Origin: Aotearoamyces nothofagi
Lineage: Eukaryota > Ascomycota > Leotiomycetes > Leotiales > Tympanidaceae
Assembly: GCA_015345905.1 (NCBI GenBank)
Contig: JADDTR010000002.1
Location: 558,001-622,000, forward strand
Direction of reading: 5' to 3'
Length of the DNA stretch: 64,000 nucleotides
This document shows positions 15,983 through 64,000 of the stretch, one piece after another. The notes under the pieces are model-generated. The model did not search any database, was not told the DNA's origin, and saw nothing but the letters and a program-made list of their open reading frames with translations. The translations under genes were made by a program, and so were the position numbers. The number at the start of each line of letters is the position of its first letter. Positions within the stretch are counted from its first letter, which is position 1.

Positions 15983-17840
15983 TCAGATCGGTGATGCAGT
16001 CGAGAGCGACCAGACCGGGTCATGGTACTCGAAGACCGATGGCTTTCCCTTTCCATCTGCATTTTGCGTAACTGCCGGAGCGACGAAAGTTGAAATGCCG
16101 GTCTTTCGATCATATGACTCATGTGAGGATGCGAGACGCTTACCGCCACCGCCAGGAAGATCCACGACGAATTGCGGAGTCAGGAAGCCGGCGATGCTGC
16201 CGCGGATCTCACGCTCTAGGTTGAGGATTGTCTGAAGAGGGGTTCGCAAGTCCTCGACACCTTTGACCATGTCGCCTTGGTAGACATAGTACTTTTTGAA
16301 TGTTAGTTTTGCTCTAGTGTGTATAGAGTGGATAACTCACGGGTAAGATATTAATATCAGAAAGGCCTCGAATCAGTGCCTTCATAGTATCGACATTGTC
16401 GTTGACGCCTTTGAGCAACACGGCTTGATTACGAACCATCACACCTGCCTCGAAGAGCTTCTGAGCCGCAAGCTTGGTGACCCAAGTGATCTCTGCTGGA
16501 TGGTTGAAGTGGGTATGAACTGCTACGGCCTTTCCCGCCTTCTTACCGAGATTTGATACGGCAATCAATGCACTTCCCCAGGAATCATCGGGGTCCAAAA
16601 TACGACTTGGGCATACAGCAAGTCCCTTGGTTGCGAAGCGGAATCGACGAATGTGCGGGATTGAGATCAGACGCACACCGATATCGTACATTTGCTGAGG
16701 TGTCAAGTAGTAAGAGTCGCCGCCCGAAACGACGATGTCAGTAAGTTGAGGAGTGTTCTCGACATATTTGAACATCTCTTCCCAGCGTCTACGGGTAGGC
16801 TTAAGGTTGCCAGATTTGGCGACTAAGTTGGTGTCGGCACCAATAGCGTAAGAACGGGTGCAGAAACGACAGTAGACGGGGCAAACAGAGGTGGCTGTCA
16901 GAGTTAGTAATGCTTTAGGGGGGTGCAACCTGTGGGTAGTATGGGAGTTCTAGCAACGATCTATCTGACACTAGGTAGGGGGTATGAAAAATAACAGAAA
17001 CTTGACATGAGTAGTTCGTCAACCGAACTTCTCGATCAATTGACTCAGAAGCCGAAGGCGAATGCAATCTACTATCTACTATCGGCCATTCAAAAAGAAA
17101 GATAACTTACCAAGGAACAATGCCTTATCCGGGTAACGATGAACGAGACCAGCGACTGGAGAGTCATGCTCCTCACCCAGAGAATCAAAGGTCAGTCTTG
17201 GGTGGTCTGGGAGAAGAGTCGACTTCATAGGAATGAATTGGCGACGAATGGGATCTTCCAATGGGTTGCTCCAATCCGCAACACTAAGGGTATGCGGAGT
17301 AAGACGGATTGCCATTGGTGCCATTTTGATACCTTCCATGACATCCATGATAAACTCATCGCGAGTCTTGATATGGCTTAGTCTAGAAGATTCTGAATAG
17401 CTTGGTTGCTTGATGGTCTCTGGAATTGTGGAGGAGAGAAAGTTGATCAGCTTCTTGTCACCCTGGACTGTATTCGCTATCTGAAATGGAATTAGTAAAT
17501 GGAAAGCAAGTCAATATTGATTGAAGCTTGCCTGCCAGTTGTAGTTCAGAAACTTCTCCTCTGGTATATCCTTCCAAAGTGGTATCTTTTGCCAGTAATA
17601 ATCTTGGCTTTCAGGTGAGATCTGACTTGCAGATTCGTTGACGTCATGCACGGGCCCATTGTTGACTTGAGGGGTTTCTACTATCGCGGTAGCTACTTGT
17701 GCTTGCAAGGGCGCCGTTTTGGTCATAAGATGACGAGTGATAATGACTGATGAGACTGATTTGCTGCGTTGAACATGACGCCTGAAGGATGATGAAAATG
17801 GCGTCGAAGTTGCTTTCGCATATGAGAAAGGTCGCATCAT
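15983..17840 (-). CDS. lysine 2,3-aminomutase-like radical SAM protein
   Basis: Four exons (17840-17532, 17480-17111, 16894-16341, 16291-15983) give 513 aa. The radical SAM cluster motif CxxxCxxC is complete (Cys231, 235, 238 in TSVCPVYCRFCTRSYAIG). IVVSGGDSYYLTPQQ, HTHFNHPAEIT and NQAVLLKGVND match the KamA family, which moves the alpha-amino group of lysine to the beta carbon using SAM and PLP. The C-terminal GGGGK is also KamA-like. The N-terminus (MMRPFSYAKATSTP..., rich in Arg/Ser, no acids) looks like a mitochondrial presequence, so I start there; longer in-frame upstream sequence is probably 5' UTR. Intron 1 is GC-AG (CAG|GCAAGC), joining NYNWQ to IANTVQGDKK. Intron 3 has an A-rich acceptor (CAAAAAG). 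Enzyme activity on free lysine is not proven. Confidence 0.85.
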
Positions 17841-32373: not shown

Positions 32374-32493
32374 GAGCACTCTGCCGGAGCCTGTCTGCAG
32401 CGAACGCAACAGCATTCCACCGCGGCTTGCATCCCGTGGCACCCACTCACTGTATGCCCAACACGCCCGACTCGCTGTCGTGGACGTGGACGT

Positions 32494-32529
32494 GTACTTG
32501 TACTTGTACTTGTACTTGTACTTGTACTT
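32494..32529. repeat. hexamer tandem repeat (GTACTT), 6 copies
   Basis: Six exact copies of GTACTT. Confidence 0.95.
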
Positions 32530-32583
32530 GGACAGAGCACAATAACGTCCTCCAGTGCATTGCAGGCCCGCGCATGTCCCCTA

Positions 32584-32933: not shown

Positions 32934-32980
32934 ATAACACATAAAATAACACATAAAATAACACATAAAATAACACATAA
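32934..32980. repeat. 12-bp tandem repeat, ~3.9 copies
   Basis: Unit ATAACACATAAA, three full copies and one nearly full copy, with no mismatches; an AT-rich minisatellite inside GC-rich surroundings. Confidence 0.95.
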
Positions 32981-48210: not shown

Positions 48211-49536
48211 ATGGCTCCTTCTGTAGCCGAGATCGCCGCGCACACCACAGACAAAATCCAGGAAAGGCTGGCGTCGCTCACACATAGCGACAAGCCTGCT
48301 AAAAACGCCGTTGACAGCAAGCCTGTAGAGTCTGCACCAGCCGTTCCAACCCCAACCACGGTCCACAAGGAGCCTCTCAAACTCAGCGGTGCTCTCGACA
48401 ATGTCGAACAGTTCGATGTTACTCCTGTAATTGGCCGAGAATTTGCAGGTGTTGACCTTGCAGAATGGCTCAAAGCACCAAACTCTGATGAGCTTCTGCG
48501 TGACCTGGCTATCACGAGTATGTGCCAAAACACCGAAGTCTTGAATTCGAACAAGCTAATTGCTTCGTCTAGTCTCCCAACGCGGTGTTGTTTTCTTCCG
48601 CGCCCAAGACAACCTGAACAATGGCCTGCAGAAGGAACTAGTCCAGAGACTGGGCGAACTCTCAGGCAAGCCTCCCACATCCAAGCTTCACATCCACCCC
48701 GTCACCAACTCTGGCCGTGCCCTCGGTGGCAGGGATGACGAGATCAGTGTCATCTCTTCTGAACTGCAAAGGAAGATCTTCAAGAACGTCAACGTCACGG
48801 GCGAGCAGTTGGAGAGCGAGAAGAAGCAGAGCTCCAAGGAGGGATGGCACTCGGACATCACCTTCGAGCCGATTCCAAGCGACTACGCCATCCTGAGACT
48901 CACACAGCTTCCCAAGACCGGCGGGGGTAAGTTCTCTTTCCAGACAAGAAATAGATACGATGCGACCTAACTGCTGTGCTAGACACCCTCTGGGCATCCG
49001 GATATGAGCTCTATGACCGCATCTCTCGCCCTTACCAAAAGTTTCTCGAGAGCCTTACTGCTACTTACGCCCAGCCCAAGTTCAACGAGGCCGCGGACCA
49101 CAACGGCTTCAAGCTCTACACCGAAGAGAGAGGGGCTCCAGAGAATATCGGCGACAAGCTCGAAGCCACCCATCCTGTGATCCGCACAAACCCCGTGACA
49201 GGCTGGAACTCCGTCTTCGCTGTCGGCCACCACGTGCAGAAGATCAACGGCCTCACCCCTCCCGAATCGAGGACCCTGCTCGACTGGTTCGTCAGGCTCA
49301 TCACCGATAACCACGACCTGCAGGTCCGCCACCGATGGCAGAAGCCGAACGACCTGGCCATCTGGGATAACAGGAGCGTCTACCATATTGCCACCCCCGA
49401 CTATCTGGACCAGGGCCTCGGAGAGCGCACGGGACAGAGGGCGGTGAGCTTGGGAGAGAGGCCTTACTTTGACCCGAGCAGCAGGAGCCGGCGAGAAGAT
49501 CTGGCTGCTTCGCAGAAGAAGCTGGCGACGGCTTGA
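48211..49536 (+). CDS. TauD/Jlp1-type 2-oxoglutarate-dependent dioxygenase
   Basis: Fe(II)/2-oxoglutarate dioxygenase; yeast Jlp1 and bacterial TauD release sulfite from sulfonates. Three exons (48211-48517, 48573-48926, 48983-49536) give 404 aa. The iron ligands are His195 and Asp197 in GWHSDITFEP and His355 in DNRSVYHIA. The 2-oxoglutarate-binding Arg lies in GERTGQRAVS. The sequence QRGVVFFRAQDN is typical of fungal members. Introns (55 and 56 nt) are fixed by LAITISQRGV and KTGGDTLWASGYE. The N-terminal 65 residues are Ala/Pro/Lys-rich and variable. Whether it belongs to the downstream cluster is unclear; the neighbouring AKR gene points toward it. Confidence 0.9.
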
Positions 49537-49757: not shown

Positions 49758-51150
49758 TCAAGCCGCCGCCGACTTCTTCTGCGAAGCAGCCCAATCCAGC
49801 GCGCTCTGCCTTGCACTCGCGTCTCCAACCTCGCCGAAGACGTCGACGCCCCATCGCGCCGGGAAGTTGTACCTATGGTGCTTCTCGAGCGCGCCCAGCC
49901 TCTCGAACGCGTCTTTGGGAAGCTCGAAGTCTAGATCGCGGTCCTGTCAGCATACCATACGATACCATCCGACTGGCCCGGGCAGCCTACCTACCCTGGA
50001 AGTTGCTCTCGATGCGCGCCCTGGTCACGCTCTTTGGCAGGACGCTGGTGCCGCGCTGCACGGCCCAGCTGATGAGGACCTGAGCGGGGGTTCTGCCGAG
50101 GTCTGCGGCCACGGCGACGACGACTGGGTCGTCGACGGCTCTGGGTTCATCTGCAGTCAGCCATTTGCCATCCTTTGCCTCTGTGGGGAGCGGCCGAGGA
50201 GGGATACCTTGGGAGGCCGTAGATGTTGTTGCCGAGCGGGCTGTAGGCGGTCACGAGGATGTTCTTGCGCGGCGTCAGCTCCCTCTGCACACCTGTGAGC
50301 TTTCTGCTTGGGGGTAGTCACGTTTTTGTTCTGCCACTCGAGGAAATCCCGCTGCTGCAGGTAGGGGTGGGCCTCGATCTGGTGGACCGCGGGAGGGATT
50401 TCCGCTCTGCGCAGTCGCAGCCGTCTGTTAGCAAGTTCCCAGATCCGGGCTCGGGATGGAGCCGCGCTCACGTCTTCAGCAGTTCTTCGATCCGCGCTTG
50501 GGTAAAGTTGCTGATGCCGATGCTTCGAGCCTTGCCCTTCTTCACTAGGGACTCCATGGCTCTCCAGGTATCTGCGACGGGGATGTCCACGACCTGGATC
50601 AAGCCGGTCGCGGGATCTGTAGGGAAGGCCTTGCCGGTTTTGGGGAAGGCGACCGGCCAATGCATCTGTTGCGAGTTAATACGGCCTGCTTCCCGTGCCG
50701 GGCTCGATCACGGGGACTTGCTAGATAGAGATCCACATAATCGGTGTCCAGATCCCTGAGTGTCTTGTCCAGCGCGGCCTCTACATCCTTTGGATCATGG
50801 TCTGTATTCCACAGCTTCGACGTTATCTGCAAGATCAGTCAGCCAGATCGACCGTCAACCGGATTCTGTGCACTTGCAAAGATGTCCTGGCGCGGCACGC
50901 CAGACGCCTTGATCCCGCGCCCGACTTCCTCCTCGTTCTCGTATCCAGCGGCGCCGTCGAGATGTCTATATCCCGCCTGCAGGGCGTCCTTGACTGCATT
51001 TTCTACTTCGTGCGGCTTCGATTGCTGAAGCCATTTGTGAGAAATGTGCCCAGGAGAGGAAGAGCGAGGCCTTCTGCTTACCCAGGTCCCGAGGCCGACC
51101 GCGGGGATTTCATAACCGGACGAGAGCTTGAAAGAGCGATTGAGAGCCAT
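49758..51150 (-). CDS. aldo-keto reductase, GaaA/GAR2- or glyceraldehyde-reductase-like
   Basis: NAD(P)H-dependent carbonyl reductase. Eight exons (51150-51082, 51024-50878, 50826-50722, 50665-50472, 50406-50322, 50284-50208, 50140-49995, 49930-49758) give 331 aa. The catalytic tetrad is Asp46, Tyr51, Lys76, His109 ([27 protein letters not shown]). [11 protein letters not shown] and [17 protein letters not shown] bind cofactor. Introns 2 and 3 are GC-AG (donors GCAAGT). Intron 5 is only 37 nt. Introns 6 and 7 use later AGs, giving [13 protein letters not shown] and [13 protein letters not shown]. The ending [15 protein letters not shown] recalls fungal D-galacturonate reductases, whose gene in Aspergillus and Botrytis is divergent from a DHDPS-type aldolase, as here. 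Met56 codons upstream is absent; an alternative start at 51168 adds six residues. Confidence 0.85.
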
Positions 51151-51575
51151 GCTGATTGTGGTTTTCACTGAAGAACAACGAACTCGATGGAAAAAAGAGG
51201 CAGCTGGCCGGGAAGAGTATATTCAGGATCTGTTTACTGACGGCCTCCCTGACGGCGGGGCTCTCTTTAATTGTAGCATGATTGTGACATCGTGGTCAAG
51301 CATCGCGTGCGGGACAATTGAAGACGCCAGAGACAATGCCCCGCCGATTTGCTTTTCCGACTCCGTTTCGGGCTTATCCGCTGCTTATCCCGCCCACTTT
51401 ACCCCCTCTTGACACCCCGCCGCGGGGTATTAGACGCCGAAGGCCGAAGCACTCCGCAGCACCAGGTTCTCTATATGTATCTGCTCAAAGAATTCTACGA
51501 ATGCCCTCAAATGCCCTCTACTGTCCCTGTCAGTAAACTCTGCGAGAAGGAGAACAGAGTTTTATAGAATATCTC
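51151..51575. promoter_or_regulatory. shared divergent promoter, AKR / aldolase
   Basis: 425 nt between two start codons facing away from each other, so both genes are probably controlled together. It holds ATTGTAGCAT (51270-51279), also present in the other divergent promoter of the cluster, TTACCCC (51399-51405), and GC-rich words CCCGCCG that a Zn2Cys6 protein could bind. Function of these words is inferred. Confidence 0.6.
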
Positions 51576-52629
51576 ATGGCTTCGACGAGTTCCCCGGCGA
51601 CACCTCCCCCTCCAGGCGTGTTTGTGCCTGTGCCAACATTCTTCAAGCCCGCAGCGACGAGCTCGTCGTCGTCGTCGCGGCAGGCGGCAGTAGATGTTGC
51701 AACGCAGGCGGAGCATTCGTTGCACCTGGCAAAAGCAGGAATCACAGGATTGGTCCTCCTCGGCTCAACCGGCGAGGCCATCCACCTTTCCAGTGCAGAG
51801 CGCAAGAATCTCGTATCGGGCGTGCGAAAGGGCCTGGCAGACGGTGGCTTCCCCGACTACCCCATCATTGCGGGAGTCCTGACGAACTCTGTCGACGATG
51901 CGCTGGAGCAGGTGCAAGATGCGAAGGAATCTGGCGCCCAGTGGGCGCTGGTCCTCGCACCGGGCTACTTTGGCCCGGCTGTGACGCAGCAGAATATACA
52001 GGAATGGTACACGGTGGTTGCTGATGCCAGCCCACTTCCCATCTTGATGTGAGTTCTGGAAACGACCCGGCATGGGGAATCTTGTGCCTGATTTACCACT
52101 TAGCTATCATTATCCTGGCGTCACAAACAACGTCCAGGTTGGACTGGAGACTTATACCAAGCTTGCTGCGCACCCGAATATCGTTGGCGCAAAGATGTCT
52201 CATGGAAATGTCTCGCACCATCTCCAAGTCTCTCTCGATCCGGAAATCGACCACTCGAACTTCCGCCTCTACAGCGGTTTTGGGCAGCAGCTTTTCCCAG
52301 TCGTTATAACCGGCGGTGCAGGTGTGATCGACGGTCTTGCAGCCTTCTTCCCCAAGGCTGTTGTGCGTTTATACAGCCTGTCGGCATCCCTGCCGATCGA
52401 CCAGGAAAAGCTAGCAGAGATCCAGAAACTGCAGTTTGCTGTGAGCTCCGTCGAGGAGTTTGTAGGGGCGTATGGTATTGTCGGCATCAAAGAGGCGATC
52501 CACCGTGTTCTGGGACTGGGCACGTTGGAGGGAGGCAGGTTACCGCTCAAGGGCCAAATAGGTCATGGGGAGTGGGAGAAATGGACTGTGCAACTTAACC
52601 GGTTGCAGAAGTTGGAAGATGGGTTCTGA
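51576..52629 (+). CDS. DHDPS-family aldolase (2-keto-3-deoxy sugar acid aldolase, LGA1/GaaC-like)
   Basis: Class I aldolase of the dihydrodipicolinate synthase family. Two exons (51576-52048, 52104-52629) give 332 aa. GSTGEAIHLSSAERK is the substrate carboxylate loop, ILIYHYPGVTNN carries the catalytic Tyr (Tyr161) and IVGAKMSHGN the Schiff-base Lys188. PPPGVFVPVPTFF at the N-terminus is typical of fungal L-threo-3-deoxy-hexulosonate aldolases (2-keto-3-deoxy-L-galactonate to pyruvate and L-glyceraldehyde) and their paralogues. Its head-to-head position with the aldo-keto reductase supports sugar-acid breakdown rather than lysine synthesis, which fungi do not make by the DHDPS route. Which epimer it cleaves is open. 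Confidence 0.88.
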
Positions 52630-52724
52630 TTACATCTGGCATCGGCATAGCTAGCATAAAGAGAAACTCACAGGGAGGAATAATCTACCAATCTTGGCCT
52701 AATAATACATATTCTTCGTCGCCC

Positions 52725-53332
52725 CTATGGCAGAGCAATGCACTCAATCTCAAGATCCGCGCCCTTTGGCAACTCTTTGACCGCAATGCAGGACCTAGCC
52801 GGTTTATGCGTGATGCGCTTCTCATATTGACTGTTCATCGCTTGGAAAGACTGCATGTCTGTAAGGAAGACAGTGACCTTGACGATCCTATCCAGCGACG
52901 AGCCGGCCTCTGCCAGAATGGCCGCGAGGGCATCGACACACGCATCGGTCTTCGCGGCCATCGACCCCGTCACCAGTTCTCCCTCAGCGCTGGCCGGCAG
53001 CTGTCCCGAGACGTAGATCGCGTACGGGGTGCGGATGGCTTGGGACTAGAGGAAGGGGAGAAGGTTAAAGGGGACCGCGCGGGCACGTGATGAGCAGTAA
53101 GACTTACGTAGGGTCCGACGGCTGGGGTTTGGTCTGTTAGCTAGGGCTGAAGCAGAGAAGCGGGACGGGAGAGGAGCTACGCACGCGGCATTGCATGCTG
53201 GGTGAGGACTTGTGTCAGGTTCGCCGCGCGTTGTCTCGAGCTCTGGTGAAAGAGGCTTGCGGGGGGGTGGTTTCGCAGGCAGGCCGCCCTCACAAGGGAT
53301 GCGCGCAGCAGGCGCGGCGCGATGGCAGCCAT
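52725..53332 (-). CDS. RidA/YjgF/UK114 family imine deaminase, mitochondrial type
   Basis: Hydrolyses reactive enamine/imine intermediates released by PLP enzymes. Three exons (53332-53185, 53121-53108, 53045-52725) give 160 aa. The first ~45 residues are basic with no acidic residue (RLLRASLVRAACLRNH), a likely mitochondrial presequence as in yeast Mmf1. The middle exon is only 14 nt and encodes PVGPY, giving the family start PPVGPYSQAIRTPYAIYVSG. The imine-binding Arg is in PARSCIAVKELPKGADLEIE. It is transcribed divergently from the galactonate dehydratase-like gene, 397 nt away, so a role in this cluster is likely. Confidence 0.9.
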
Positions 53333-53729
53333 TTCGAAATGGAAGCAGTCACGTGCCGGGAGTAGGAAGGTCGCAATGGACAGATATATAGAAGATCGAA
53401 CTGGACACCTGAATAGAATACAGGAGGCCGGGATTACTCAATGGGGAATCTGTTATTGCCGTTATTTATCCTCTTGTCGGCACGGCTGCTAAAGTTGCTA
53501 ATCGCTACCCGTCCCGCCGTGAATCTCCACTTCTCCACATACGGATACGTAGCTTTGCATTGTAGCATCTAGCATTTCCCGGCACAGCAGCAGCCTCGGC
53601 GGATAAAGCCCCGGCCATGATTCCGCGATATCGGGCTACTTCGAGCCAGACTTCGAAATGATTTGGAGATTTTAAATACTTTGGGTATACGTGAAATATC
53701 AGCAGTCGTTTATAGCCGATCGTACCATC
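53333..53729. promoter_or_regulatory. shared divergent promoter, RidA / dehydratase
   Basis: 397 nt between divergent starts. It contains ATTGTAGCAT (53559-53568), the same ten bases as in the AKR/aldolase promoter and in the same orientation, plus CCCGCCG near 53513. A common regulator is inferred. Confidence 0.55.
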
Positions 53730-55031
53730 ATGACCAAAATCAAGTCTGTCGAGTATTTCCGGGTTCCTCCACGTTGGCTGTTTGTTAAAATTACGGACGA
53801 AGATGGGTGTTTTGGGTGGGGAGAGGCTTCGTTGGAGGGCCATACTCAGGCTGTGGAGGGATGCCTGGATGAGTATACTGCGAGACTGATTGGGATGGAA
53901 GCAGAGTGAGTATCTGAAGATCTGACATATGCCGATGGAGGCTGATGGTGGAACGGCAGTGATATAGAACATATATGGCAACTGCTATATCGTTTCGGCT
54001 TCTATAGAGGTGGGCCGGTTATGATGAGTGCGCTGTCCGGAATCGATATTGCGTTATGGGATCTTAAAGGTGCGTTTGTAGATATACGGTCTCTTCCATG
54101 ATGCTGATGTAGTATAGCACGAAACCTTGGCGTACCGGTTTATCAGTTACTAGGAGGCAAGGTCAGGAGCAAGCTCAAGGTCTACGCATGGATCGGTGGC
54201 GACAGGCCAAAAGATGTTGAAGCACAAGCGTAAGAACCTGACACCGAATAGCCTCGTCAACGTTCCGCGCTGACCAGAAACAGGAAAGCTCGGCAAGCAC
54301 AGGGGTTTAATGCGGTGAAGATGAATGGGACGGAAGATCTAGGTTGGCTTGACACTCCGTCTGCGCTGCAAGATTGCGTCGCGCGTTTGAAGACAGTCAA
54401 GGCGCTGGGTATGGACGCCGGTATTGATTTCCACGGCCGAGTTCATAAGCCCATGGCGAAGCAGTTAGCACGCCTTCTCGAGCCCCACGAGCCACTATTC
54501 ATAGAAGAGCCACTGCTGTCGGAAAACCTGGAAGGTATCAAGGCACTCTCCCAGCACACCAGCACGCCCATTGCGCTGGGCGAAAGACTCCACAGCCGAT
54601 GGGACATCAAGCCCTTCCTCGAGTCCGCCGCAGTGGACATTCTCCAGCCAGACATCAGCCATGTCGGCGGAATCTCCGAGATGCGAAGAATCGCATCAAT
54701 GTGCGAGGCCTACGACGTCGCCCTCGCTCCCCACTGCCCGCTCGGCCCGATCGCGCTCGCAGCCAACGTCCAGGTCGACGCCGTCTCGGCGAACTTTGCG
54801 ATTCAGGAGATGAGTCTCGGCATCCACTACAACGCGGGGTCGGAGGACCTGACGAGCTATACTCGGAATCCCGAGGTGTGGAACGTGAGGGATGGCTATA
54901 TTGACCTTCTGACGGGTCCGGGGTTGGGGATTGAGATTGATGAGGAGTGGGTGAGGCGCTTGTCCAAGGACGCGGTGCCCTGGGTCAGTCCAGGGTATAT
55001 TGGGCCTGGAGGGGAAGTCAGGGAGTGGTAA
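53730..55031 (+). CDS. D-galactonate dehydratase-like enolase-superfamily enzyme (DgoD type)
   Basis: Dehydrates an aldonic acid to a 2-keto-3-deoxy acid. Four exons (53730-53905, 53960-54069, 54118-54229, 54284-55031) give 381 aa, as in bacterial DgoD (382). [24 protein letters not shown]-like [19 protein letters not shown] and YAWIGGDRP match DgoD from memory. Metal ligands and catalytic residues are Asp181, His183 (GIDFHGR), Glu207 (LFIEEP), Glu233 (LGERLHSR) and His283 ([15 protein letters not shown]); E. coli DgoD has them at 183, 185, 209, 235 and 285. It differs from the fungal L-galactonate dehydratase LGD1/GaaB, which is longer. The start is the Met just before KIKSVEYFR; an upstream Met at 53691 is possible. 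Confidence 0.9.
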
Positions 55032-55515
55032 ATAGGATGCTAATTACTCAAGTAGATGCCGAAGGAGTAAGTTATTAAAATGTCGGTCCCACTTGGCATG
55101 CTACTTTCCTCACTCATTAGTTTTATAGTACAAGCTCATTAATTCATATCGAAACGGTGATCAGTACTTAATTGTGCCATCTCTGGTAAGGACTGACGAG
55201 TGACATATTCTCTCTATCCGTAGTAGATGTGGCTGACTTCTAGGCAATCCACTGCTAAATGGTATGCATAAACCAGACCTGTAAGTTACATCAGCCAAGG
55301 TACCAGACGGATTAACTCCTATATGACATATCTCCGTGATTTTCAAATCATAATAGCGTGCAGCCCCAGTTTGCGGGGGAGGGCCGAGGGCGCACTAAAA
55401 TCCGGGGTTCGGAAAAGCAACATCGCCCGGCCAGTTATCAACAGATGCATTGTCCACGCACAGCTTTATCTTCCTTTTCCATCTCCACACTCACCGACTA
55501 TGTCCATGATACGAT
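55032..55515. other. intergenic, promoter of regulator gene
   Basis: The dehydratase 3' flank followed by the upstream region of the Zn2Cys6 gene. No repeat seen. Confidence 0.5.
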
Positions 55516-58264
55516 ATGGCAAGCTTTCCTGCATTTCCGGTTCATTCCACTCCCGCTGAAGGTGCCTCGGATGTCTCCGAGCCGCCGATCCCTGGGAGTG
55601 TTGTTCGGGGTGCTCCAACACGCTCGCCAGTAGCCTCGTCAGCAAGGCGTACTGCCAGAGAACGTGTGAGAGTTAGTCGGGCTTGTGATAGGTGCAAGAG
55701 GTTCGTTTCAATATTAACATGTCCAATTGCTGGTTATGGACGATCCAGCAGATGACGATTTGATAGTAAAAAGATTCGGTGCACGGGAAAGAAGCCTTGC
55801 ACGTTATGTGACAAACTCGGCGTGGAATGCGACTTCAATGCCCGTTATACTCGAGGGCGAGTCCCACCCGTTGAACCAGGCGGGCAGAGCTCTCCGGTCA
55901 GAAAGCAAAATGCGCAAATGCGAGCCGTGGGAGCTGATGCAGTGTTCGAAGGGCCGGTAACGCCTGTCAGTAATGGCACGGACGCTTCACAGACCTCCAG
56001 GGAACTTATGCCTCCATTAGGGACAGAGTCGACCAACCACTCTTCAAGAAACTCACCTGAGCCATCGCAAACTGATCTTCAAGGCCATTATGTCGGGCCA
56101 TCAAGTGGTGTATCATTCCTGCTCCGAGCTCAAAAGCGGCTCCATAAGATCGTATCGTTATCACCTAACTCGTCTATATTTACATTCGGCGACACTCCTC
56201 TGCCTGAATTTGACTCGTCGTTTTTCGTTCTCCCTCCTAAAGACAAGGCGAAGGCATTGGCTGCCCGGTATTTTGATTTCGCGGTCCCAACACACAGGTT
56301 TCTGCATAGGCCAACTGTGGAAAGCTGGCTAGAGGAGATGTACGCCAATTTAGGTGTCATACGTGAGCGACAAGGAGAAAGAGGGAAACGAGCAGTGCTG
56401 TTCATGTTATTTGCACAAGCATTGGAGTACATGCCTAAAGACCACGATTCACAAGCTTCTGATTCGAGGTTTTGACTCCCTGCACGCTGGCAGTCACTAG
56501 CAGCTAACTTTATATAGTGCACGTTACTTTCAAGCGGCTGAACATCAGCTCCTAGCTGAGACGGGAGAAATCAGATTGACAAGTGTGCAGGCAAGGCTGT
56601 GCCAATGCTTTTACTTGCTGTCGGAATCCCGGATAAACCACTGCTGGAGCCTCTTCGGTACCACGGCGCATCTCGTCCTTGCGCTCGGGATTCATAGGAA
56701 AAGGAGGCGCGAAAACTCTGGGAACTACGACATGATAGATGTGGAATGTCGGAAGAGAGTGTTCTGGTCTGCCTACACTCTGGATAATTATCTTAGTGCT
56801 GCTTTGGGGCGGCCTCGAACATTTCATGATGACGATATTGATCAGGTACATCAACTTATATCTTTCTTAACACCTCAATTTTTTAAAATAAAATAAAATT
56901 GAAGAAGCAAAACTAATCTATCATATCGTAGGAGCTACCCTCGCTCTTGGATGATTCACAACTTATCTCACCAAATGCTGCGACATCGAATAATAAGGCA
57001 CAGAGTATTATGCTGGCACCCATATACCATACAAAGTACTGAGCTTGCCCATGCTTGCTATATAATACTGACTGCAATTGTAGACTCGCACAAATCATCA
57101 GTGGCATATTAAAAGATCTCTATGGTATTCATCCTGTCCGACCCGAAATCCGCGACTCGTTCGCAAGGAAACATACCGACGAGCTGCGACGCTGGCGACT
57201 GGGCATAGCACATTTCCTTGATGTAGATGCATCACTTTTAAATCAACTTTTCCAACGGCAAAGCAATGTGCTTAGGCTTGCTTATGCTCATGCTCTGATC
57301 CTCGTCCATCGGCCTTTTCTCTTAAGCAACTTTGCTGATCTGACGAGACGAAGCTATGCGTCTAGAGTGGCAAATAAGCAATCTAGGATAGAAGAAAGTG
57401 TTTCTGAATGTCTGAAGGCCGCAATAAGTATAGTTGATATTGTAAATGATCTTTGCGAAGGTGGCCAGAACTTTCGTGCATTTTGGGTGAGTACTGTCCT
57501 CCGAATCAGGAGTCCTACTTACATTTGAGCTTCAGTTTACACACTACTATGCGTTCTGCGCAGTCGTCGTCCTTTACGTGTACACGATACAGCGACGTTC
57601 TGACTCGCCCACAACATGGAAACCATATTTCTCCGCCGCGGAGAAGTGCCAAAACCAGATCTCGTCCTTGGTAGGAGAGCGAGATTCATTCGCACAGCGC
57701 TACAGCATAGTGCTCGAAGAGCTGCGTCTCGAAGCCGTCAAGCAGACCAAGGGCCAAGCATCATCAAGCAGCAGTCGTGGCACTGAAAGAGACCAAGATG
57801 CCGAGGTCGCTCACGCGATCCTGACGCTGGCTGATAACAGCCATCTGGACGGCTATACGATTCCTAGAGACGCGCAGCCGGATGCCCGTCATATGCTGGC
57901 GGCTCTTGTCGCGCAACAGGAAGAACAGGATTCGCTCGTGCCGTCTTTCGATACGTTTGATGGCTTACAGGCGATGTCGTCTGAGACGAGGGACTTTACG
58001 TTTCCACCTAGAATCGTAGGCGCCAGTCCTTCGAGTCTTATGGGCGATGCTACGGGATGGGGAGAGTTCGATTCTTTTGTAAGCACATCAGGAAAGGATT
58101 TGTAACATAGTTTTCAGGGTTAGGACTAATCGGATCTATAGGTCACGGCTGGTATAGGAGGCTTGGAATCACAATATTTTGGGAACTTGGATACCATGGA
58201 TGGCGCTGAGCGGTGGGATTTCCGAGGCCTCGATCCGGCGATAAATAATAGCAACAGTTTATAA
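55516..58264 (+). CDS. Zn2Cys6 transcription factor with fungal-specific TF domain
   Basis: Seven exons (55516-55700, 55767-56468, 56518-56845, 56932-57035, 57084-57486, 57536-58078, 58142-58264) give 795 aa. The zinc cluster Cx2Cx6Cx5Cx2Cx6C (ACDRCKSKKIRCTGKKPC, then TLCDKLGVEC) is split by intron 1 inside a Ser codon. The middle domain of the fungal-specific type runs from about residue 200 to 560: HRFLHRPTVESWLEEMY, then RVFWSAYTLDNYLSAALGRP and DDDIDQELPSLLDD; later AYAHALILVHRPFLLSN. The tail is acidic and Ser-rich, a possible activation region. Lying between the dehydratase and transporter genes it is the natural candidate regulator of the cluster. Exon joins agree in phase throughout. 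Confidence 0.88.
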
Positions 58265-58476
58265 CATTGCCTCATACTTATCTTCTAAATCACGCACGAC
58301 TTGGAGCTCGGCAAATAGAAATGCCTAATCAATGTATTTCGTCAAACTATAGCTGCCATATAACTAGCCGTTAGCCTCCTGATAATGATTACACTCTGCA
58401 CCGCTTCCTATATGAATAGTTGTTTCTTCCATCCCGCTGTAAGCTCACTGATCCTAGCTACTGTGACATGCTCCAT

Positions 58477-60333
58477 TTACAATAAGAACCTAAATCCGCG
58501 ATCTACCGCTTCCGCCGGCAAGCCGCTGTCTTCAATATCGTTGACACGGGCCCGTTCATTCATCTTTCCATCATGGCCGATCGTGACGCCCTGTTCAAGC
58601 TCCCTATTCAAGCGAGCGAGAACAAAACGAAGGATCGAGGCACCGACAATCGACATGATGGAAGTGGCACAGTTCACGGACATTGCGAGATAGTAATGCG
58701 GCTTGGCGTCAGTCGGGTACAGGAAGGGCGAATAGATCTGGCACACGTTGCTGAGGGCGTTGATGCCAGCCAGGGCCGCGGCGCGCTTTGCTGGTGGGCG
58801 CGGGAGGACGTTTGAGATCCATCCGAGCGTGACGACGTAGCCAGAGTAGGTAGCTCCGATCATTAGCATCATGGAGAAGTAACGAGGGCCGAAGCCGGTA
58901 GTGGTCATGGCGATGATATATGCAACTGCCGCGATGGCTGGGCCGATGACCACGTGCAGGTATCGCTCGCGGGTGCGGTCTGCGTGCCAGGCGTTGGTGA
59001 GGATAATGATGGTGCCGAGGACGTACGGCGGTGCTGTGAGCAGGAGGGTATCTACGTTTCCATAGCCGAGACTCTTGACGACGGTGGGGAAGAAGGTAGT
59101 GACACTTCCAGAAGATGTAAATCCGTAGACAGTTAGGAGTAATATCCATGTCTTGATATCCCTGTTACAGTATGGTTAGTACATGATTCTTCAACATGGG
59201 GCGGTTGCAGCGTACTTGACGGCTAGCAAAGCGCCGTGGAAAAACGTCTGTTCCTTAGAAGAGATCCAGTCATCAGTTCCAATATCTTCGTGAAGTCGCC
59301 AGACAGCCATCGCCTTCTCGTCTTCCTTCAACCACGAGGTTGTTCGAGGAAAGTTTGGCATCACAAAGAAGGCGCCAATAGCTACAGCGACCTTTTTGAA
59401 AGCGTTAGCTTGGAACAAGATCGTGCTCTCTTTTGCACTTACAGTTGCAGAACCTTCTATGATGAACAGCCAGCGCCATGCCCCAAGTCCTCGCACGCCG
59501 GCCATTCCACTGGTGATCCCTGCGGCAATCAACCCAGAGAACGCACCCGAGAGCAGTGATCCTGAATACAAGAGGGCTGTTCTGAGAACAAGCTCCTCGC
59601 GTGTATACCAGGCAGATAAATAAAATAGGCAACCGGGCCGTAAATCAGTCAGTCATTGAGCTACTGGAAGATTTCTCGTATGGACTTACAAAGTAGGCAG
59701 CCTCGACAAAACCTAAGAAGAAACGGCATACGAGTAGTCCAGCATAACTTTGCACGGCACCTGTGAGAGCCGATATCATACCCCAAACAATCATGCAGGT
59801 AGGCAGGTAAATTGCTGGTTTTCCAAACTTATTAAGTAAGATATTGGATGGGACTAAGCCTGATTAGCTAACAGTCAAGAAAAGAAGTCGTGGCTGAAGG
59901 CATACCCTGCATCAACAGGTATCCAACAAATAAGATACTAACAGAGGTCTATGATTGGTATTAGTTGCGGTTACTTCTCGAAGTTTTGATAACATACCTG
60001 AAATTCTGAGCCCTTCAAGTCGAGATCGTTCTCCATGCCAGCCAGCCGTGCCGATGCGATGTTGTTGCGATCAAGGTAGTTTAAGATATACATCGCGAGA
60101 GCGATGGGCATAAGACGGAGGTCTATTTTGTGCCTGAGTCTCAGATTGAGTTTTGCTCGCTCTTCCTCCGTGAGATCAAGAAGGATTGGAGGCATGCGAC
60201 TCGGCACAGACTTGATTCCAACGGATGCTACATCTTCCACTTCCTGGATAGGGATTTTGGCAGTGCCGAAGTCCACCGGCGACTTATTGGTCGAATGGAT
60301 GTTATCAGTACCCGATACGAGTTCGACGGCCAT
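58477..60333 (-). CDS. MFS transporter, anion:cation symporter (ACS) family, with non-canonical intron end
   Basis: Six exons (60333-59998, 59948-59906, 59859-59690, 59637-59443, 59391-59216, 59161-58477) give 534 aa with about 12 hydrophobic segments. The family pattern is clear: YILNYLDRNNIASARLAGME, SNILLNKFGKPAIYLP, CRFFLGFVEAAYF-PGCLFYL, SAWYTREELVLRTALLYSGS and FPRTTSWLKEDEKAMA. ACS carriers take up organic anions; bacterial DgoT (galactonate) belongs to this family, which fits the cluster. Intron 3 (59689-59638) has a good donor GTAAGT but ends in TTTACGG instead of AG, and no in-frame AG lies closer than GAG at about 59596, which would delete about 14 residues including YFPG sequence. 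Intron 4 is stop-free and in frame. The upstream Met at 60420 is probably in the leader. Either rare GT-GG splicing or impaired expression. Confidence 0.82.
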
Positions 60334-61245: not shown

Positions 61246-64000
61246 ATGGCAACGACTACTCTAACGGAGAGAATCAGTTCTCTACTTACCCCAAAGTCCC
61301 CAAGAATACAGCACGTAGAAATCTTGGAGGGCCCAGCTTTTAATAACCAGCCAGTTGAAGAGACTCCTGTTTATACAATCAATGACCTTCTTGTTCAACG
61401 TGCTAGGTCTACACCGGATGTTTTGTTACTAGCATATCCAGGCTCGCCAAAAGGCAAGGATGACTATCTTCATTATACAGCAAGAGATCTGGATCGATTT
61501 GCGAATGAAGCCGCCAAGAGGTACATAGGGTTGGGTATTCCGCCGAAGGTATGAACTCTTAGATCTTATTATGGTAATAACGGCTAAGGAAATGGCCTAG
61601 GAAAACGATGAGACGGATGAGGTAGTAGCTGTGCTTGCACCGACCAGTCTCGACTACGTAACAACCATTTTCGCACTCTCCAGATTGGGCTACACACTTC
61701 TTCTTCTTTCGAATCGTTTACCTCTTGAGGCATATGTGTCTCTGCTGGAGAAGACAAAATGCCATCGTATCGTCAGCACATCCGGTTTTGGAGCGACTAT
61801 CCAAAATTTGAAGGATGTATATGACATTGCTTCATACCCTGTCTTGGATAAATCTTTTTACGATCTGCCTCAGCCTACGGGTTCCTACTTTACGCGGGTC
61901 ACTGACGGACCTGCGGCAAGTAAAAGCGCTGCATTCATTGTTCATTCTTCGGGCTCGACCGGTCTACCAAAACCGATATTCCAAACACACAAGGCAGCTC
62001 TCACCAATTACTCAAGTGGACTTGCATACAGAGCTTTCCTGACTTTGCCACTCTACCATAACCATGGACTTTCATGCTTCTTCCGGGCTATTTACGCCGG
62101 TAATGAGATTGCAATGGTCAACGCCAATCTCCCCATGACTGGCAGCAGTCTCATCGCGGCTATGGAGAAATTACAACCTGGCGGTTTCCACGGTGTTCCA
62201 TATGCACTGAAGCTCTTAGGCGAGAATGAGCGTGGTATTGCTTTACTCAAAAACTGCGAGGTAGTAATGTTCGGCGGTAGCTCCTGTCCAGACGAGCTAG
62301 GAGACCGTCTAGTTAAGGCTGGCGTCTACCTTGTCTCTCATTACGGAGCGTAAGTAAAGGATTCGTCGATTATGGACGCTGGCTAACTTTGAATTGCCAG
62401 CACCGAAATTGGTCAGTTGATGACTTCATTCAGAGACCGTAAGACAGATAAAGCTTGGAATTATGTGCGGCCTATTGAAGGACGGGAGAAGTTCATTCAT
62501 TTTGCGCTTTGCGGTCCAGATACCTATGAACTGGTGGTCCTGGATGGCTTGCCCTCAAAAGTAGTATCAAACTCAGACGACCCACCTAATTCCTTCCACA
62601 CATCCGATACCTTTACTCCTCACCCCACGATCCCCAATTCCTGGAAGTATCTGGGCAGACTCGATGATAGGATCACATTAGTCAACGGCGAGAAGGTTCT
62701 GCCTATACCTTTCGAGCATCGAGTTCGAGCCAATGACTTTGTGCAGGAATGCTGGATGTTCGGTATTGGAAGAGCACTTCCTGGTATCATGATCGTCCCA
62801 AGTGATAAAGCTGTCACCATATCCAAGGCTGAACTCTTCGAGAAGATCTGGCCATCCATCGAAGCGGCCAACGCTCGAGTGGAGGGGTTCAGCCAAGTCT
62901 CAAAAGAGATGGTAGAGGTATTAGACGCTGGTACAGAGTATCCTAGCACGGATAAAGGCACCATGATAAGGATAAAGACATACAAGAAATTTGAATCCGA
63001 GATCGAGGCAATTTATGAAAGATTTGAAAATGGCACAACAGAAGAGAACGCTTCCCGCCTTGCTCTGGGCATTGACGAGCTTGAAAAGTATTTGCTTAGT
63101 GTCTTCCATGAGAAAATAGGCGTCAAAAGTCTCACTGTTGACAAAGATGTCTTCGAGGTTGGAGTTGACAGTTTGCAAGCTATAACAGTTTGGGGCCTGA
63201 TAAAGCGTGAAATAGACCTTGGATCAGGCGTCGTTGGACAGAATGTTGTTTTTGAGTATCCCAGTGTCAAAGCCTTAGCAGCACATCTTTATGCTCTTAG
63301 GACTGGTAATGGTGTCGAGGCAAAGGATGAGCTTACCATAATGGCAGAGCTAATAGAGAAGTACTCGGCTTTCCCTCAGCATACTCCTGGTGACAAGATC
63401 GTTACCAAACAGACCATTGTGAGCATTTCTGTTTTGTACAATTGCATCTTTCTGACATAAATTAGATCCTGACAGGTGCTACTGGAACACTGGGAGCACA
63501 TGTTCTCTCTCGGCTCATTGCGAAAGAAGAAGTCGAGGCTGTCTACTGTCTAGTTCGCGCGTCGTCACATGCAGCAGCTACGGACCGCGTTCTCTCAACA
63601 CTCTCATCAAAGTTACTCAACGCAGCTGATACCTCGAAAATAATTGCTCTTCCTTCAGATCTAAGCAAACCAGACCTAGATCTCGACGTTGATACAATCT
63701 CCGCACTACGATCCAAGCTAACGAAAGTCATACACTGTGCTTGGGCAGTGAATTTCAACCTTGGTGTATCCAGCTTTGAATCACAACATATTCGGGGTAC
63801 ATATAATCTAATATCCTTATGCCTATCTATCTCTACTCTGGAGCCTGCCTCGTTCTATTTCTGCTCTTCAATATCAGCCGCGGCTGGAACTCCACTACCA
63901 GCGACTATTGGAGAGACATATATCAAGGAACTAAGTCATGCACAGAATATGGGTTATGCCAGGTCGAAATTGGTTACTGAAAACATTATCAAAGCTGCTA
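61246..64000 (+). CDS. NRPS-like carboxylic acid reductase (A-T-R), 5' part
   Basis: Adenylate-forming reductase: it activates a carboxylic acid as AMP ester, binds it as thioester and reduces it with NADPH. Visible exons 61246-61548, 61601-62349, 62401-63418 and 63466 to the window end encode about 868 aa, open at the 3' side. Adenylation core SSGSTGLPKP (about 217-226) and YNHGLSCFF, HYGATEIGQLM and LGRLDDRITLVNGEKVLP follow in order. The thiolation site is Ser at about 607 in FEVGVDSLQAIT. The reductase domain starts at about 691 with ILTGATGTLGAHVLSRL and has the SDR YxxxK (GYARSKLVTEN). No condensation domain is present, so it is not a classical NRPS. Junctions are all GT-AG. Substrate unknown; relatives include aminoadipate- and aryl-acid-type reductases. 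Confidence 0.88.

Follow-up and report, generated by a model that had tools for sequence, protein, structure and literature searches.

What compound, if any, is degraded jointly by the products of six neighbouring genes at positions 49758-60333 of a 64,000-nucleotide stretch of the genome of the leotiomycete Aotearoamyces nothofagi (the window)? For each of the six, an intron-containing gene model was built from splice consensus and homology (Table 1), and families were assigned by a Pfam scan of seven genes. An earlier note, made from the sequence letters alone, had described here two divergent pairs, aldo-keto reductase (AKR)/aldolase and RidA/dehydratase, together with a regulator and a transporter, and had left two readings open, namely, a D-galactonate route or a D-galacturonate pair that had gained neighbours. 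Every family and the whole arrangement were recovered by the models and Pfam, with gaps of 425 and 397 bp between the divergent genes; the outer coordinates also fit, 49758 being the end of the AKR gene and 60333 the start of the transporter gene. Genes of the window have short introns and fungus-specific domains. Judged from sequence, the six genes probably represent a cluster of nonphosphorylative D-galactonate catabolism (probability about 0.6).

In the proposed route, D-galactonate would be imported by the MFS protein and dehydrated by the DgoD-type enzyme to 2-keto-3-deoxy-D-galactonate (KDGal), which the DHDPS-family enzyme would cleave via a Schiff-base lysine to pyruvate and D-glyceraldehyde. 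D-glyceraldehyde would then be reduced to glycerol by the AKR with NADPH. The Zn2Cys6 factor would switch both shared promoters, with the substrate or the keto-deoxy acid as the signal, and RidA may serve as an accessory imine/enamine hydrolase, or may be a passenger. Substrates, cofactor, flux and regulation are predictions here, as are the roles of the transporter and RidA. No match to KDGal kinase (PF05035) was found among the seven genes scanned.

The dehydratase matches the NCBIfam equivalog NF010624 over its full length (residues 3-381) with 529.5 bits, 218 bits over the cut-off of 311, and each of the 12 other NCBIfam models listed for it remained under its own cut-off. This score bears out the earlier assignment of the enzyme to the bacterial D-galactonate kind. 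Among proteins of solved structure the closest is 3rr1, a putative D-galactonate dehydratase (429 bits; runner-up, 197 bits). Residues D181, E207 and E233, which we take to be the metal ligands, and H183 and H283, presumably the catalytic histidines, are invariant in all 47 aligned rows. An L-galactonate dehydratase of the LGD1/GaaB type was rejected, since the DgoD equivalog was passed and the nearest solved structure, 3rr1, is itself assigned to the D-galactonate dehydratases; no LGD1 sequence was included in the comparison.

Four confirmed loci of the dehydratase came out of a pattern scan covering 84,980 species of bacteria and archaea, three in Asticcacaulis (68, 63 and 63%) and one in Solimonas (62%). 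Whole genomes were searched at E 1e-110: of the 398 from the phylum, 40 contain relatives, all 48-56% identical with the exception of the Asticcacaulis genome. At the level of the order, they were present in 6 of 299 genomes, five at 63-68% and one at 53%; in the order of Solimonas, 8 of 85 genomes contain relatives, one at 62% and seven at 54-55%. Plasmid records matching at E 1e-100 numbered 270, and only two exceeded 60% (best 66.8%), both from Asticcacaulis excentricus.

A tree of DgoD was built from 48 rows, namely, 46 bacterial proteins, the window protein as the single fungal sequence, and one outgroup. The fungal dehydratase lies within a set of eight rows (100/98), whose rows come from Asticcacaulis and genomes of the same order; this set is nested in a 10-row set with Solimonas (99/93) and then in an 11-row set with Niveispirillum (100/100). 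The end branch of the fungal protein is long (0.76), and its position inside the 8-row set is not fixed by the tree. With its one fungal sequence, the tree would fit transfer between bacteria and fungus in either direction.

In the genome of Asticcacaulis excentricus, dgoD has the gene of an FCD regulator on one side and that of an SDR on the other, and a sugar porter is encoded upstream; in Asticcacaulis sp. AC466 dgoD is followed by an SDR and an aldose epimerase. The gene order in Solimonas is DgoD, SDR dehydrogenase and DgoK kinase (PF05035, 292.9 bits); upstream of these lies a gene for a GH1 glycosidase. On the Niveispirillum plasmid (locus L053, 4652-9140), genes for glycerol kinase and an FAD oxidoreductase are divergent from dgoD, and a GH2 glycoside hydrolase is located nearby; this neighbourhood may hint at a glyceraldehyde/glycerol route in bacteria too. 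By their gene content, the loci of the clade look like galactose oxidation via D-galactonate, resembling galactose and De Ley-Doudoroff operons, and it is mainly for this reason that D-galactonate is preferred as the substrate. As a separate observation, the genes dgoD, SDR and DgoK of Solimonas terrae (locus L003, 6001-8872) have overlapping ends and form a compact De Ley-Doudoroff operon.

Transfer of a whole bacterial operon was also considered and is unsupported: tblastn at 1e-4 over 53 loci of bacterial relatives, with flanks that measured roughly 1.5 kb at most loci, 6 kb at four and 8-9 kb at two, found no homologue of the aldolase, AKR or RidA beside DgoD. A weak match to the transporter was present at three of these loci. 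The best matches in plasmids, to which this search was restricted, were 32.5% for the aldolase, 45.6% for the reductase and about 42% for RidA, versus 66.8% for the dehydratase; since the former are far weaker, the dehydratase alone looks shared across kingdoms.

The closest solved relative of the aldolase is 3qfe, a putative member of the family (142.6 bits; the next, 83.6 bits). Comparison with 3qfe and 3pb2 showed that the positions of the Schiff-base lysine and of the tyrosine of YxxP are kept and that a GSTGE motif (GxxGE) is present; the roles given here to the lysine, tyrosine and arginine residues are assumed by us. The gene is, as far as its sequence allows, a candidate for the fungal KDGal aldolase. 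Assignment as 4-hydroxy-tetrahydrodipicolinate synthase (dapA) was rejected: the protein fails the dapA model TIGR00674 (111.6 bits vs 206.15) and carries valine in place of the carboxylate-binding arginine of 3pb2, the aligned dapA enzyme.

The nearest solved relatives of the reductase are aldehyde reductases AKR1A. Its N-terminus is presumably more similar to those of fungal glyceraldehyde reductases than to that of the galacturonate reductase GAR1, which would count against a galacturonate role. Two of the seven introns in the AKR model are of the GC-AG type, an unusually large share.

In RidA, exon 3 alone reaches 106.8 bits with TIGR00004, at a cut-off of 106.25. The model of this gene requires an exon of 14 nt and has an arginine-rich N-terminal extension, which, as a guess, might be an organelle-targeting sequence. 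The regulator bears both expected domains, PF00172 and PF04082.

The transporter is not readable as a single gene with canonical introns. At about 59638-59689 it has an intron without a frame-keeping AG at the 3' end; AGs upstream in this intron reach stops in all three frames, and splicing farther downstream would cost about 14 residues. The allele may be broken, the splicing of a rare type, or the assembly in error. For both parts, scanned separately, the best NCBIfam model is that of the D-galactonate transporter, TIGR00893, with 77.7 and 90.5 bits against a whole-protein cut-off of 395, and a PDB search with each part gave nothing significant. The protein had been described as an ACS symporter; membership in the MFS (PF07690) holds, whereas the ACS or DgoT label is a best match far under the cut-off, for a gene that may not splice normally.

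Signs of joint regulation in the promoters are weak and suggestive, and both were picked after looking. The 12-mer TCGGAAAAGCAA occurs in the promoters of AKR/aldolase and of the regulator, and its 10-mer core was as frequent as observed in none of the 300 controls of each kind. The word CGGATAA is present in three of the four promoters, a result reached in 1 of 500 shuffles, in 4 of 300 random controls and in none of 300 controls low in open reading frames (ORFs).

The other reading of the earlier note, a D-galacturonate pair of the gaaA/gaaC type that gained neighbours, has the arrangement of the genes in its favour: the divergent AKR and DHDPS-family genes match gaaA and gaaC of Aspergillus niger (An02g07710 and An02g07720; the arrangement is described in PMC5306355), and the locus tags of gar-1 and lga-1 in Neurospora crassa are adjacent. 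Family membership alone could allow the aldolase and the AKR to be galacturonate enzymes. Such an origin is nevertheless unlikely, as the dehydratase of the cluster is of the DgoD type and not of the L-galactonate type. The galacturonate element CCNCCAA (GARE), moreover, which an excerpt of PMC5847190 reports for A. niger and which may differ in other fungal classes, is absent from the 425 bp gap shared by the AKR and aldolase genes and from the 1 kb upstream of each of the two. Nor was it found in any of the four promoter stretches, which is weak evidence, since shuffles expect only 0.94 occurrences; RidA and the transporter each have a single copy of CCNCCAA in their upstream 1 kb. The D-galactonate route, in turn, is strengthened by the DgoD equivalog, the loci of the clade and the KDGal kinase in one of them, so that the galacturonate pair with gained neighbours is now the disfavoured of the two readings.

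Five positions of the dehydratase (34, 38, 52, 210 and 309) are fixed in its clade (11 rows) and differ from the 36 other DgoD rows; positions 34 and 38 belong to a stretch which, we assume, is able to shape the substrate end in this superfamily. The substrate may consequently be shifted, and the cluster might serve a different acid with this configuration, for example D-fuconate or L-arabinonate, or else a galactonate that carries a modification. This is improbable in view of the KDGal kinase located beside DgoD in Solimonas, a member of the same clade. With a similarly small likelihood, the six genes would be neighbours by chance, without a common pathway, or remnants of a decaying cluster. 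Consistent with chance or decay are the splice-site defect of the transporter, owing to which uptake may be lost unless the assembly is wrong, the lack of a clear role for RidA, and the overall sharing of words among the four promoters, which exceeds dinucleotide shuffles (7-mers, 0 of 200) but not low-ORF stretches, 113 of 300 of which reach it. On the other side, a dehydratase, a pyruvate aldolase, an aldehyde reductase, a transporter and a regulator make up a complementary set for one route, and in five of the six genes the reading frame stays open across plausible introns. The ambiguous families of the aldolase and AKR, the clade-specific residues, the transporter defect, the weak point of RidA and the word-sharing result all weigh against a D-galactonate cluster, as does the absence of galactose dehydrogenase and lactonase families from the seven genes scanned with Pfam. 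The function proposed in the earlier note holds in its families, arrangement and the plausibility of the route, and the substrate and the transporter label remain predictions.

The chemistry of D-galactonate is already known in fungi. As far as the excerpts of the cited papers go, Aspergillus terreus converts D-galactonate to D-KDGal and further to pyruvate and D-glyceraldehyde (Elshafei and Abdel-Fatah 1991, cited in PMC11219438), and the fungal nonphosphorolytic pathway of A. terreus and A. niger comprises the same dehydratase and aldolase steps as predicted here (PMC11219438). Only some of its genes have been identified: in a survey of sugar metabolism from 2022, the aldolase step of fungal D-galactonate catabolism is called "still elusive" (PMC9781776). 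A D-galactonate dehydratase gene of A. niger and, as KDGal aldolase, a protein of the same species were used in engineering (PMC8113861), which speaks against the novelty of the present candidate, one being already in use; the strain containing it and the dehydratase showed no growth on galactose (PMC8113861). For A. niger, a study of 2025 gives six putative genes of the D-galactonate pathway, of which five were raised when mutants grew on sugar beet pulp; it also invokes the pathway as a possible reason why a mutant of this species unexpectedly grew on D-galactose (PMC12744346). What appears to be new in the window is a cluster with its own regulator gene and a candidate aldolase. The earlier statement that no fungal cluster of this composition had been characterised agrees with the open-licence literature searched, in which none was found among the papers listed. 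In Bipolaris cookei, a gene annotated as galactonate dehydratase has unrelated neighbours.

Among known systems, the fungal galacturonate pathway gaaA-gaaB-gaaC-gaaD resembles the cluster in its divergent AKR/DHDPS-family pair, in the reduction of glyceraldehyde and in control by a Zn2Cys6 factor; it differs in that GaaB, the dehydratase of A. niger, takes L-galactonate and is located elsewhere in the genome, and in that the four promoter stretches of the cluster are without GARE. Bacterial dgo, or De Ley-Doudoroff, operons share the DgoD-type dehydratase, and the enzymes of Asticcacaulis and Solimonas are close kin of the window protein; Solimonas carries DgoK, whereas the window cluster has a DHDPS-family aldolase and an AKR beside DgoD. 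To our knowledge, no divergent AKR/aldolase pair is present in the fungal L-rhamnose (LRA) cluster. According to excerpts of the respective papers, that cluster likewise encodes a sugar-acid pathway and has a regulator of its own (PMC5674754), but begins with a sugar dehydrogenase and employs L-rhamnonate dehydratase (PMC9781776).

The cluster offers concrete candidates together, namely, for the aldolase, the glyceraldehyde reductase, the transporter and the regulator. A tentative proposal, held at somewhat below even odds, is that of a complete and locally regulated fungal D-galactonate cluster, in which an Asticcacaulis-like dehydratase, shared by inter-kingdom transfer, is combined with a fungal-type aldolase/reductase pair that bypasses the kinase, and which holds the missing KDGal aldolase. 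If the dehydratase moved from or to bacteria, it would be a clear example of a single enzyme that passed between kingdoms and was coupled to other downstream reactions.

Table 1. Genes and shared promoters of the putative D-galactonate cluster, in coordinates of the window
Feature	Position	Strand	Supporting data
Aldo-keto reductase (AKR), 324 aa, 8 exons; proposed D-glyceraldehyde reductase	49758..51150	-	PF00248 186.8 bits
Promoter common to reductase and aldolase	51151..51575		contains 12-mer TCGGAAAAGCAA; without CCNCCAA
DHDPS-family class I aldolase, 332 aa, 2 exons; proposed KDGal aldolase	51576..52629	+	PF00701 106.8 bits
RidA-family protein, 160 aa, 3 exons	52725..53332	-	PF01042 120.1 bits
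Promoter common to RidA and dehydratase	53333..53729		one CGGATAA
DgoD-type D-galactonate dehydratase, 381 aa, 4 exons	53730..55031	+	NF010624 529.5 bits vs cut-off 311; best PDB match 3rr1
Zn2Cys6 transcription factor, 795 aa, 7 exons; proposed cluster regulator	55516..58264	+	PF00172 35.6 bits, PF04082 111.7 bits
MFS transporter; proposed sugar-acid importer	58477..60333	-	PF07690 in both parts

Just upstream of the cluster, at 48211-49536, a gene for a TauD-family dioxygenase (PF02668, 160.2 bits) was found, a possible further member of the cluster. Next to the transporter, a gene starting at 61246 leaves the window at 64000; its product, judged by eye, is similar to an adenylating carboxylate reductase (NRPS-like). 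Farther away, an ORF on the minus strand at 16314-16949 resembles a radical-SAM aminomutase, unusual for a fungus, and has no Pfam match at 1e-5. Perfect tandem arrays with units of 6 and 12 bases are present at 32493-32530 and 32934-32980.

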